Origin: Bugula neritina
Taxonomy: Eukaryota; Bryozoa; Gymnolaemata; Cheilostomatida; Bugulidae
Assembly: GCA_964035545.1 (NCBI GenBank)
Contig: OZ037773.1
Coordinates: forward strand, 9,878,251 to 9,942,250
Direction of reading: 5' to 3'
DNA length: 64,000 bases
The position numbers were made by a program, and so were the translations under genes. Positions 18,741 to 63,995 of this stretch are shown in pieces. Every line of letters starts with the position of its first letter. Position 1 is the stretch's first letter. The notes under the pieces are model-generated. The model was not told the origin of the DNA. It was given only the letters and a program-made list of their open reading frames with translations, and searched no databases.

Positions 18741-21700
18741 TCAGTTGCTTACTTTACACGTCCAGTAGTGCATAACACAGATATTCGGTACATCTGGAGA
18801 ATATGGTGAGTTCCAGCAGCGGCAGCTACAAGAGATAACTTAATGGCAGCTTCTCTTTCACACAGTGCTTTATCATACATACTCCAGTATAAGATGATTT
18901 AAATAATATTTAAAATAACAAATAGTTTCATTAATAAACCGTTTTATATCATTAGGCATGTCTTTGATGATTGAATTTATTAAGAATCCGTGTACGTATA
19001 TACACATGTATTATACTGTGCAGTAACCAATCACAATGCATGTCTTATATGAATACACATGTATACTGTGCAGTAACCAATCACAATGCATGTCTTATAT
19101 ATGAATACACATGCATACTGTGCAGTAACCAATCACAATGCATGTCTTATATGGATACACATGCATACTGTGCAGTAACCAATCACAATGCATGTCTTAT
19201 ATAAATAAACGTGCTATAACTGTATCTGACAAGCTTACATCATATTTTATGCTATGTGAAACTATTCTGAGATATTGCCAGCTGTGCCCTAGCTAATGTG
19301 TACTAAATAGAATTATAAGCTGTAACTACTGAATGAGAAATATGCATACTCTGCTCTATTCTATTATTGTGATCAGCTATATTGTCAGCTTCTACTGTCA
19401 GCATATACATAGAAAAGCAGAGCTTCTTATAAGTTATCTAACTGTAACCTTCTATATCACCCACTTGTACTGTGAGAGTCCCAACAAAAAGTGCATATTT
19501 CACTTAACAAACAATGAAGAAAATGTCAAGTTCAACAGAGTTTTCTAATGTAATCTATATTTGAATGAGTTTTTACAAACCACTTGCTCAAAACATTCAA
19601 ACTCTCATTGGCTTTTTGGAGATGTTTTGAATAAAATATTGTTGGGAGTTGAAATCTTACCTGTATGAAGTTCCATACCCAATCCTCTTTACATTCAGCA
19701 GTGCGCCAGAAGTATCTTCAGAACTACACTTGGCTGATAAAACTCTTGACTGCAAAAGTTATAGCTTCAAAGAATTAATTAAAAAGTTGTTATAAACATA
19801 ATACTCAACGTTATGCATTATAAACTTTTGTGACTGTTTCTGGTACTTTATGCCTGTGCAATAAATTTCAGAGTGCTTCAGAACAAAAATAACAAAACAA
19901 AAACACCGTAAACATACATCTATATATAAACGAATTTATGCCATTCAAAATTACACAATGCATGCACTTGTAATATAAGCTGTTTCTTCTGTTACGTTAC
20001 ATAATTTGTCTTCCATTCCACAGATTTAACAAATAAAAAGTTTTTAAGGATGCAGAAAAGATGAATACCAATGCAAATAATAACTTATGAGACATCAGAA
20101 AAAGTTATTACCATTGCTTTTCAATGAATATTTTACCTATCAGATCTTTGTGTGTCTACTTTTTGACACACATATCAGTCTCCAAACTCACTAACCTTAG
20201 CAGTATCTGAAACTTCAATTGTCTCAACACTTTCATCTGACAGGAATGAGTTAATCTGTGATTCCTTGTTATAATAGCACAGAGATGGGTCGATGGGTCC
20301 GGGTAGTCCCTGCATGGAGCATAAGGAATGAACAGAGTACTGCTTTAACATGTTTTTATTCATATTTCAGATTTACCCCCTTTTGGAAATGAATAAATAA
20401 ATTTATGCATTCATTTAGTCACAAAAAACACAAACTTGCTGTATTAAGTAAAATCCTGCTTTTAATTAGCTTAAAAGAAAATTCATAATTTAAAGAAAGA
20501 AAGATTAGTTTAAATGATCGAATTCGTAAACTTGGTTTTTTAAATATTCAGAAATGATAAAAAATATTGTAAAAGTTTAGGTCAACATTGCATTGGAAAC
20601 TATAGTATGAATATCATAACAAACAGAAAAATTGACATATCAATATGATGCAAAACGTCGGGAGGATAAGTATAAGCTAATAACAGACAAAGATTTAAAC
20701 TGTTGCAATTATATTTTGAAACTGAGGCATACCTTGGGACCAGCTTCTCCTGTAATTCTCTGTAAATCAAGTACATAGTTCGTTTTAAATTACGTCGCTC
20801 TAAACATGGCTGGTGAAGTACATATATAAGATTGGATGAAAATACTGTGTGTATGAAGCTCAGTATATACTACAACAAGTGAGTTTGTTTTGGAGTTGTT
20901 CTACTTGCATGATAATTGATTGACATTAGCGAACCTAATCAGTCAAATCTTATATCATGTCTATAGTACAACTGAAGGATTTTCAATAGTTATTTTAAGG
21001 TATATATTATATGATATTCTGGTATACATTGTAAATGTTTTCATCAGAATATTATATATATATATATATATATATATATATATATGACTTACATTCATAG
21101 CTGACTGCCATATTCTTTTTTGGTATTGAAGCTGAAACATGGTACCATAAATTAAAATAGTTTTTTTCATTTTGCGGTTTTGCCACAGATTTCAATGAGC
21201 CACCAACATTTATTCAATTTCAGCTTGTTATAAGCTTATTGTCTATTATGAAAAGCTATAGAATTATAATAACTTCTACTATAATCAGTCAATAGGCCTA
21301 AAACCTTACAGTAGTATACAGTCATATTATTTGCAAAGTGATTAATAAACACTAAATCACTGTTAAATTTATCCTACAACTTGTTAATTACACAATTTTC
21401 TTACAAAAAAGTCAAGCAAGTTTATAGTTGATATCCCGTGAGAATCCCTAAGTTTTTCTTAAGCAGGCCAAGAAGTTATTCAATATTATATCACAGGCCT
21501 GGGCATATATGAATCGATATTCTTTCTAGCATCACCATTGACCTTTACTGGGGTTGGAACCCATGCATGCTGCAAGCTTACTAAACCAGCGCTCTTTTCC
21601 CTAGACCACTGCAGCTGCCCCCTTTTATTCGTTCTTACAAGTTCATTTAATATGAGTTATTTTTATTTAAATTTGCCTTTTACCAGTGTTCGAAGCCACA

Positions 21701-61700: not shown

Positions 61701-63995
61701 AAAAGTAGCGTTGACTTAACAACTAAGTGGTTTCAGAGCTACTACAAAATATTTTTCAGCTTACACTAATCGGATTAATTTTCAATTTCATCAAAATAAG
61801 TGCAGGTCTAACAACTATTAGAGGTGTGGTGCAGGCTATACCAACAATAAAAGGCTTTTTGAACAACTTTAGTGCAAGCACTGCACTAATATTTCTCTCT
61901 GTGTATACACAATGAAGAGATCAGAGGTTATCACACTGATAACATACTGTTATAATGTTTAGAGGTCATGCAAGGGTTTGTTTATTATCTCAGCTGTCAT
62001 CAGCCTAATGATAGGCCATGCACCAGCTGTAATTATTACATAATATTTGCTGTGGATAATGCTTATATAAATTGTTTGACACAATAATTGTTGTAGATTA
62101 CACCTAAGGCTAAATTGATAAACACTGCTTTACGCTAAAATAATTAAAACGGTCTTAAAACACAGCTTCATGTTCAAAGTACTGCTGTGAAAACTCATTC
62201 AAGTTCTATAAAGTCTATGACAAGTACAGTAACTAAATGTGCCCCAGAAAAATCGCTTATGAACTTCATCTATATGAAGTGTGTCAGGGATTCTTTAGGT
62301 AATATAGTTATGGCTTATTATGGAATGTGGCACAGCTTCCTTTTTATAGTAAAGTTTTGTCATTTTATTTGCATCATGCGTAAGTTATATAGCTATGTAT
62401 GCCTTTCAGATATTAGTAATTAAAACATAACATAGATACTTGACATCTTCTAGAACATTTCAAAAATAATTAGCGCAACAAATATTGTTGTCTGTATATT
62501 TTAATATGTTTCATTACTATTTTCTTCAACTTGAAATCATAGCAATTTTTTGTGGTTTTTCTTGCTGAAATATTACAGGTCAATGTATGCAATATGTAAC
62601 TGAGAATTGAGTGTATAAATACAATATAATGACTATAATATTTTGCATTGCCCTGGAGTCCAAAGGGGCTCTCCTTACCTAGCTGCTTTTAAAGATCGGT
62701 CAGCAGTCCAAAAGGTCAATATGACAACAGCAGTAAACAAACATCATAAACAAAAGAGCTCTCTAACGACAATAAAAACAAGTTTGGCCACCCAGGTTGT
62801 ACCCTTGCTCAACACCTTTAAACAGCTTTATACAACATATTATATTTCATTTCATTACACCATTCTGTTTAAACTAAAATGGATGTTTCTCAAAAAATGT
62901 TATTTGATATTTGCTATCATCCAAGGCTCAGCCCACCCTGTAAAATTGAAATTATCATGAAAGGATGACTCCAAAAATTAATTGATTATTCATGTATTAC
63001 TTGAAGGTCTTTGTCAGACGATGCATTCAGAAAAATGGAGATGCCTGTGAATTCTGTGGCAGGGCAGCACTCTCCCCATTACGTCTACCCCATGAAGCTA
63101 CAGAGTCCTCAGTCTAACTACTGCATGGAACCACATTTACCAGCAACTCCTCTTCAGCCACTAGCTACTCAGCTGTCATATGAAGGGCAACAGCAGGTGC
63201 TCAAACACAGGTTACACAGGTGAGTTATGACTGGTCTTGTAAAGTTCTGTCACACAACAATTGTACTGGAACAATAGTGCATTCGATAATTGGATTTCTT
63301 AGATGGAGGTTATTAATCAGGTTTTTATTCTTGGAGTTTTTCTCTCCCAAAATCTTGCATTTAAAGACTAAATTTTATATAGTTTAAAAAGCATATTTTT
63401 CAAATGTAAAAGATAATTACTATTTATATGTTGTTAACATACTATTATCACTTATGATGCCTTTCAGTGATGGAGGAGACAATCACAATATATATGAAGA
63501 AATGCGTGACGTGGGAAAGTCACACTCATTCAGAAAGTATGTAGTCTGATTTCACTTCTGTTTGATTGCCTAAGTTCTTACTTTTCAGTCACAAAATATA
63601 TCTCCAGCACTAATACTATATATAGTTACTCTCAGCAAGTTTTTGGTACTAATTTGAATTTAACGATGTTGAAGATGTTCATAGAATTTAAACCCTAGTG
63701 GTGTAAGCAATTAATCGAGTGCAGCAATTTTTGCCCTGTTGAGTCATTTACTTATAAACCATATTTGCTTAAAAATAAATTTTGAAAAGCGGAAATATTT
63801 CAAATTGAGCTTTACAAGTTTGTAAAAAGTTGAAAATATTATTTTATGGAATGAAGGAACATTTTTTAGGACTTCTAAAGACTTAATCAACCGTCCTCTT
63901 CCAAAAACCGGATACACAGAAAGTGGGAGGAAACAGTTTGATGAGGTGGAAGAGGGTACTGAATATTCAACATACAGCGTTCCTCCTGATCCGGG
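55760..63995 (+). CDS. Gene E: fifth family member, N-terminal cytoplasmic part only (runs off the window)
   Basis: Exons 55760-55955, 57014-57206, 63007-63219, 63468-63536 and 63870-63995; the last ends in a GTAAG donor at the very end of the window. Phases agree throughout, with about 265 residues seen. The ATG at 55760 begins MSGDS, like MSGNS in C and MSDNP in D; a leader acceptor lies about 57 nt upstream. The sequence is hydrophilic: QRPSGDTQRPAQ repeats, a proline run LDLPPPPAPDQLW at the end of exon 2, and NIYEEMRD (a Tyr-x-x-Met motif) in exon 4. The last visible exon (PLPKTGYTESGRKQFDEVEE then YSTYSVPPDPG, phase 2) corresponds in position and phase to the C/D exon carrying EDYLTPPSAKQ. 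Intron 2 is 5.8 kb. TM, collagen and cysteine exons are predicted beyond 64000. Family membership is inferred from start, phase pattern and composition. Confidence 0.65.
57260..57321. repeat. (TA)n microsatellite in gene E intron 2
   Basis: Uninterrupted TA run about 50 bp after the donor of exon 2. Confidence 0.9.
58393..58612. repeat. Ten-copy 22-bp minisatellite with invariant period
   Basis: Ten consecutive 22-base units of the form ATGTTCAATGGTGATCTTAT, each starting ATG/CTG/ATT. Sequence diverges strongly from first to last unit but the period never changes (unit 9 starts exactly at 58569). In intron 2 of gene E. Confidence 0.85.
58911..58985 (+). mobile_element. tRNA-like element head, degraded
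   Basis: GTGTGTAATGGTTAGCACAC looks like a tRNA A-box region and is followed by CTGTGTGCAAGTCCGAGGTC and a decayed B box (GATAGTAACCC), then a G-rich run. Looks like a SINE head, not an intact tRNA gene. Confidence 0.45.
59143..59212 (+). mobile_element. Second tRNA-like element head
   Basis: AATGTAGTGGTGAGTGTGCC, then TGCTTGCAGGCTGAAGGTCT, then a B-box remnant GATTCAAA. Same orientation and similar to the tRNA-like sequence about 230 bp upstream. Confidence 0.4.
59619..59760 (+). other. Short open stretch, possible transposase remnant
   Basis: A 45-codon open frame reading ELLGIISLVNRSFSALKLSQ and ending at TGA at 59758-59760. RSFSALK is reminiscent of the hAT transposase dimerisation region, but the following residues do not match and the flanks are broken by stops. 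Weak. Confidence 0.2.

Follow-up and report, generated by a model that had tools for sequence, protein, structure and literature searches.

Gene cluster and gene models

The window analyzed here is a stretch of 64,000 nucleotides (nt) from chromosome 9 (10,879,868 bases) of the ruby bryozoan Bugula neritina (C9:9878251-9942250), taken from the assembly tzBugNeri2.1, in which chromosome 9 measures 10.88 Mb (PMC11480708). It holds a cluster of five genes on both strands, here called A to E (Table 1), which encode membrane proteins with a short collagen-like joint and a C-terminal head containing six cysteines. The cluster is bounded by window position 18741, the final base of the gene A stop codon, and position 63995, the end of the fifth exon of gene E. 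A first-pass annotation of this DNA had proposed five paralogous type II collagen-stub membrane proteins within these bounds, and both the position and the kinship were confirmed by the splice phases, single transmembrane (TM) helices, six-cysteine heads, and head-profile tests described below. Gene E runs 4.5 kb beyond the window, with five exons inside it and eight in the locus L009.

Exon boundaries were placed by inspection of the DNA, at AG acceptors and GT donors, and the exons were then spliced by script. Exons 1 to 14 of gene D join into an open frame of 535 residues in which all acceptors are AG and all donors GT save one GC, and the 14 exons of gene C match these 14. Splice phases agree across all five genes: phase 1 at the end of the TM exon, phase 0 for the stalk exons, and phases 0, 0, and 2 at the starts of the three head exons.

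For gene E, an independent gene prediction from a second B. neritina assembly (hypothetical protein EB796_006888, here P0001) is the counterpart. P0001 starts inside exon 3 and joins exons 3-7 and 10-13, including those for the TM helix, collagen joint, and head, and is 90.8% identical to our model over 370 aligned residues. The 34 differing residues include 12 of 94 in the head and 15 of 156 in the cytoplasmic part. Exons 8 and 9 of gene E, two symmetric stalk exons of 63 and 60 nt (L009 1834-2436), are left out of P0001, which may reflect either alternative splicing that alters stalk length or an error of prediction. The genes of that assembly are described as AUGUSTUS predictions with transcriptome hints, and the US draft genome is reported as genotype S (PMC7576161). 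For the UK source, genotype S is given as common in the UK and the name B. neritina as covering a cryptic complex (PMC11480708, section 4).

Family membership and further copies

Genes A to E are paralogues and form a real, small, receptor-like family. Profiles of each head exon were made with one member left out (C and D together) and run on 3,996 six-frame open reading frames (ORFs) from the window and the loci L009, L010, and L011, after exclusion of any ORF containing training sequence. In 12 of the 15 tests the omitted exon took first place, and in another 2 it came second to its likewise omitted twin; the middle head exon of D fell outside the best three rows of its test. Several E-values were weak, among them those of the middle exons of A (0.27) and C (0.19), and the first head exon of D, at 0.005, stood close to the next row, a non-member in L010 at 0.0087. 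Across the five members, the heads retain the pattern C..C..CxC..C..YWxC together with conserved T, D, L, and Y residues. Head identity is 29-38% with the exception of C and D, at 59%, and therefore only the C/D pair looks like a recent duplication, with A, B, and E being divergent copies; the continuing local expansion that had been proposed is thus retained for C and D only.

No sixth member was found with the head-exon profiles in L009-L011 or L044 (a further 10 kb), where non-members reached E-values no better than 0.15-0.72 and 0.069-0.92, respectively, depending on the head exon. Searches of the genome with the collagen joint and head of E, and with the region from the TM helix to the end of C, A, and B, returned only the query gene, apart from D, which was also found with C, and chance matches to the B query at E-values of 1.1-3.4. 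A composite head query recovered B, C, D, and E and missed A, and distant copies would therefore escape such searches. The genome searched comprised 215,847,546 bases in 295 contigs, compared with 216,009,554 bases in 320 scaffolds given for the assembly (PMC11480708), and a few small scaffolds seem to be absent from it.

Protein architecture and tail motifs

Each protein has one strong hydrophobic TM helix with a more positive N-terminal flank, although the margin is small in C and D (4 vs 3), and by these sequence signals all five are predicted to be type II single-pass proteins. Six cysteines lie C-terminal to the TM helix in every member, with B and E also having cysteines on its N-terminal side. 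The heptad periodicity that follows the TM helix was reached by 0 of 5,000 shuffles for C, 1 for D, 3 for E, and 29 for A; the signal in B, reached by 375, is not convincing. Gly-x-x triplets number five each in C, D, and E (one scripted count gave four for D, the printed run of which holds five), four in A, and two in B, which lacks a separate 27-nt collagen exon and has only GLIGYF. The TM position, exon phases, coil exons, and six-cysteine domain ascribed to A-D in the first-pass annotation are upheld apart from the coil of B, and are shared by E in its part beyond the window, while the stated three to five triplets apply to A and C-E but not to B. The cytoplasmic tail measures 345 residues in C, 346 in D, 307 in E, at least 91 in A, and 155 in B. 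In E, seven N-glycosylation sequons lie C-terminal to the TM helix, compared with one N-terminal to it. A second structure model places six strands in the head at a predicted local distance difference test (pLDDT) score of about 50-72, and the head may, with low confidence, be all-beta.

The tails of C and D contain five YxxI/V motifs each among 8 and 9 tyrosines, numbers that 0.16% and 0.45% of shuffles attained, and each has a YxxI-x8-YxxI pair of a type seen in 0.5% and 0.7% of shuffles. The two genes do not count as independent cases, and with several motif classes examined, these figures are to be read as leads. We take the YxxI-x8-YxxI pair to fit the pattern of an immunoreceptor tyrosine-based activation motif (ITAM). 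The tail of E has a YEEM motif and an NPLY motif, the latter presumably of the endocytosis or phosphotyrosine-binding (PTB) type, and both are intact in P0001.

Divergence between genes C and D

Nei-Gojobori counts per segment gave synonymous (dS) and nonsynonymous (dN) rates between C and D of 0.243 and 0.047 for the cytoplasmic part, 0.357 and 0.052 for the TM part, 0.511 and 0.134 for the stalk, and 0.766 and 0.279 for the collagen joint and head, with a step in divergence near exon 8/9. The cytoplasmic part differs from the collagen joint and head in both nonsynonymous (Fisher p 6e-16) and synonymous (p 3e-5) counts, and dN/dS is 0.14-0.40 across all segments. This pairing of a conserved tail and TM part with a divergent collagen joint and head is, along with the full structure of E outside the window, what we consider most useful among the new findings. 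The lower dS of the 5' half may reflect homogenization by conversion, yet the introns are similarly diverged in both halves.

Comparison with known families

The heads of the five members gave no credible match in Pfam (best RMP, E-value 0.0031, in one member), in NCBIfam (best E-value 0.054, in one member), or among PDB sequences; library cut-offs were compared for the first member only, which scored below them. Neither SRCR nor C-type lectin was among the Pfam families listed for the heads at E-values of up to 10, the Pfam searches of the family proteins and heads brought up no ligand domain such as TNF or C1q, and Pfam collagen did not match the A, B, C, and E proteins or the D head. Fold matches of the head were at noise level, with rows for resistin and the PCSK9 C-terminal module, whose fold is a six-stranded, disulfide-bonded beta sandwich, offering a lead only, as the head model is of low confidence. 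The earlier statement that the end domain is not a recognized one is borne out for the libraries searched.

In the protein database, the E region gave 5,419 candidates, with P0001 as the one match at an E-value of up to 1, and a six-row profile found P0001 as its sole match at up to 10 among the 7,995 candidates scored, which were those sharing most words and were probably swamped by collagen words. A shortened D yielded 1,006 candidates and no match at up to 10. These searches require shared exact 5-mers, and distant relatives elsewhere could be missed. The family was also undescribed among the literature matches listed, which are a sample of the literature. The claim of an undescribed family accordingly survives within the searches made, with the qualification that a counterpart of E has already been deposited as an unnamed hypothetical protein. 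On these comparisons, the family appears so far to be known from B. neritina alone.

The order of parts had been likened to that of class A scavenger receptors, and this comparison stands. These receptors (SR-AI, MARCO, and SCARA3/4/5) are described as type II proteins with a heptad stalk, a collagenous part, and mostly a C-terminal domain, and the species named in the available text are vertebrates (PMC3567963). As in these receptors, a cytoplasmic N terminus is followed by the TM helix, heptad stalk, collagen, and end domain, and a single exon carries part of the tail and the TM helix (PMC3567963); the heptad coiled coil between the TM helix and collagen is seen in A, C, D, and E and is not convincing in B. 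Unlike in them, the collagen of A and C-E spans 12-15 residues rather than about 75-250, the tail of C-E has 307-346 residues rather than about 30-55, and the head has six cysteines where theirs is SRCR, C-type lectin, or none. Given these differences in collagen length, tail length, and head, we do not file A-E as class A scavenger receptors, which are, as judged from the sequences, their nearest architectural analogue. Class A members are homotrimers with modified lipoproteins or similar ligands as binding partners, a behavior that for A-E would be conjectural.

The MACIT collagens (XIII, XXIII, XXV, and COL-99), whose last 34 residues are conserved, share the type II topology and extracellular collagen (PMC4678570). 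The ectodomains of A-E are, however, not largely collagenous, with two to five triplets, and by pattern alone contain no RX[KR]R furin site, which in MACITs adjoins the TM helix; one R..R is present in the B head. According to the available part of that source, MACITs have not been identified in Lophotrochozoa (PMC4678570). Paired receptors (CEACAM and Siglec-11/16) resemble C and D in being neighbors that carry tyrosine motifs and are more similar in one half than in the other (PMC5112662, PMC5701461), but there the ectodomains are alike and the signaling parts differ, whereas in C and D the tail and TM part are alike and the head differs.

Interpretation

The reading we favor, with a probability of about 0.5, is that A-E are bryozoan trimeric type II surface recognition receptors, scavenger-receptor-like in plan. 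The cytoplasmic N-terminal tail and single TM helix would be followed by a heptad stalk through which the chains probably trimerize, a joint in which Gly-X-X is repeated four or five times (twice in B), and a six-cysteine, probably all-beta head, so that the trimer would present three copies of the head's binding face. Once heads bind a ligand or cluster, kinases could act on tail tyrosines, the likely targets being the ITAM-like pair in C and D and both YEEM and NPLY in E. The near-constant cytoplasmic and membrane half of C and D, joined to drifted heads, looks as if one signal output served two recognition faces. The gene structures, topology signals, six cysteines, heptads in four of the five members, and C/D asymmetry are observed, and the trimer, the disulfides, ligand recognition, phosphorylation, and a role in innate defense or recognition are inferred.

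Several observations weigh against this reading. The two YxxI/V-type motifs in the tail of E are no more than expected by chance (58% of shuffles); the tail of A holds two YxxV but lacks an ITAM-type pair, and that of B, with a single tyrosine, is devoid of motifs. Sequons in C and D favor the N-terminal side (3 and 4) over the outside (1 each), A has none, and a collagen helix of only five triplets would be very short. The head of C and D has a dN/dS of 0.36-0.40, with no segment above 0.40, such that positive selection is not supported. Finally, dS itself differs between the two halves (0.24 vs 0.77), and part of the contrast is therefore not due to selection on the protein; no such step is seen in the introns.

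Among the alternatives, adhesion or matrix anchoring is possible, if on the unlikely side. Here, the proteins would act in the manner of membrane collagens, for instance in the body-wall epithelium, with the stalk and head tethering cells to the ectocyst and the tail binding the cytoskeleton. The type II plan and collagen-like joint are common to membrane-associated collagens, and an NPLY-type motif is present in E, but at most five triplets, ectodomains that are not largely collagenous and lack the furin pattern, and the tyrosine-motif tails of C and D speak against it. Ectodysplasin also combines a type II plan with a short collagen and a trimeric head, and A-E could likewise be membrane-anchored trimeric ligands, shed or presented to receptors of other cells. 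We consider this improbable: the stalk, the joint, and the C-terminal beta-rich head of the low-confidence fold model are consistent with it, but no ligand domain was matched in Pfam, the RX[KR]R site is missing, and the tails of C-E seem long for a ligand. That only some members of a small, old family still work, with others decaying, is also doubtful. It would account for the missing collagen exon, poor first donor, and weak heptads of B, the 5' exon of A not having been identified, and the GC donor of D; however, all five heads are open with their six cysteines kept, and dN/dS between C and D is low in every segment.

A role as allorecognition receptors of colonial bryozoans, in which a common signaling half would carry divergent, possibly polymorphic heads, strikes us as very unlikely. 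Both the C/D pattern of conserved tail and divergent head and the residue differences between E and P0001, those in the head included, are what such receptors might show, but the cytoplasmic part of E and P0001 differs about equally, and the difference may therefore be lineage divergence within the cryptic species complex (PMC11480708). No established bryozoan allorecognition gene was found among the literature matches listed, and in the available text the authors of the draft genome mention only weak Alr1 similarities, located elsewhere (PMC7576161).

If A-E are instead recognition receptors as favored above, they would be surface-receptor candidates for the way a colonial phylum recognizes microbes or kin, with a head domain new to the libraries searched. 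The plan of stalk, collagen joint, and cysteine-rich head is best known from the vertebrate class A scavenger receptors. A bryozoan family separate from these, having another head and ITAM-type tails, would represent a second such solution. The stronger proposal of a recognition system of the bryozoans' own, in which a nearly constant ITAM-type signaling and membrane half carries a diversifying, collagen-jointed, six-cysteine trimeric head of a new kind for discriminating self from non-self or microbes, we regard as unlikely.

Feature coordinates and other features of the window

Table 1. Genes A-E and their parts (window positions unless stated; aa, amino acids).
Feature	Position	Strand	Remarks
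Gene A	24605-18741	minus	11 exons located, the 5' exon not among them; 275 aa or more; stub GEAGPKGLPGPI; six-Cys head; splice model
A TM exon	22614-22756	minus	ends in phase 1
A stalk exons (three)	22383-22435, 21897-21959, 21093-21131	minus	
A collagen exon, 27 nt	20733-20759	minus	RITGEAGPK
A head exons	20196-20309, 19661-19749, 18741-18825	minus	
Gene B	28781-33380	plus	8 exons, 336 aa; poor first-exon donor GTCGGT
B TM exon	30263-30435	plus	
B stalk exons	31179-31252, 31618-31680	plus	heptad signal not convincing
B head exons	32307-32414, 32686-32774, 33284-33380	plus	
Gene C	42177-34895	minus	14 exons, 535 aa
C cytoplasmic exons 1-6 and TM exon 7	42177-38509 (TM exon 38509-38735)	minus	
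C ITAM-like motif	residues 294-309	minus	YATITNSDIGKPYTSI; spans exons 6/7
C stalk exons	38132-38175, 37751-37813, 37366-37425	minus	
C collagen exon, 27 nt	36788-36814	minus	GPRGAKGPR
C head exons	35989-36093, 35282-35370, 34895-34985	minus	
Gene D	50075-43063	minus	14 exons, 535 aa, one GC donor; tandem twin of gene C
D cytoplasmic exons 1-6 and TM exon 7	50075-46218 (TM exon 46218-46444)	minus	
D ITAM-like motif	residues 295-310	minus	YATITNSEIGKPYTSI
D stalk exons	46022-46065, 45456-45518, 45174-45233	minus	
D collagen exon, 27 nt	44886-44912	minus	GPKGVQGPR
D head exons	44431-44535 (GC donor), 43907-43998, 43063-43147	minus	
Gene E	from 55760 to base 68513 of the extended sequence	plus	13 exons, 569 aa
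E exons in window	55760-55955, 57014-57206, 63007-63219, 63468-63536, 63870-63995	plus	63468-63536 holds YEEM
E TM, stalk, collagen, and head exons	L009, extended coordinates 64291-68513 (C9:9942541-9946763)	plus	

Within the gene cluster, intron 8 of D contains a long CA/GT dinucleotide tract (window 45549-46005), and an intron of A holds an inverted repeat (24298-24453) with an identical 27-residue reading on both strands. Between A and B lies a two-exon gene on the minus strand (25466-26590) for a 95-residue peptide with a hydrophobic, signal-like N terminus and a CxxxC..GRC..CQC pattern, which we take to resemble that of a cysteine-stabilized (CS)-alpha-beta defensin. The peptide, in a query that carried an additional residue where the two exons meet, had no Pfam match at an E-value of up to 1, and its comparison with plectasin (E-value 4.8) ranked under chance-looking repeat-protein rows. 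ARAGORN detected no tRNA genes in the window or L009-L011. Elsewhere in the window, two open, apparently intronless rhodopsin-type G-protein-coupled receptor genes lie on the plus strand at 8827-9957 and 14105-15151; their products are 46.5% identical over 288 residues and match Pfam 7tm_1 at E-values of 2.7e-17 and 1.4e-15. A minisatellite-like array of short repeats occupies 4157-4634, with QTRPYQ-type peptides readable in several frames.

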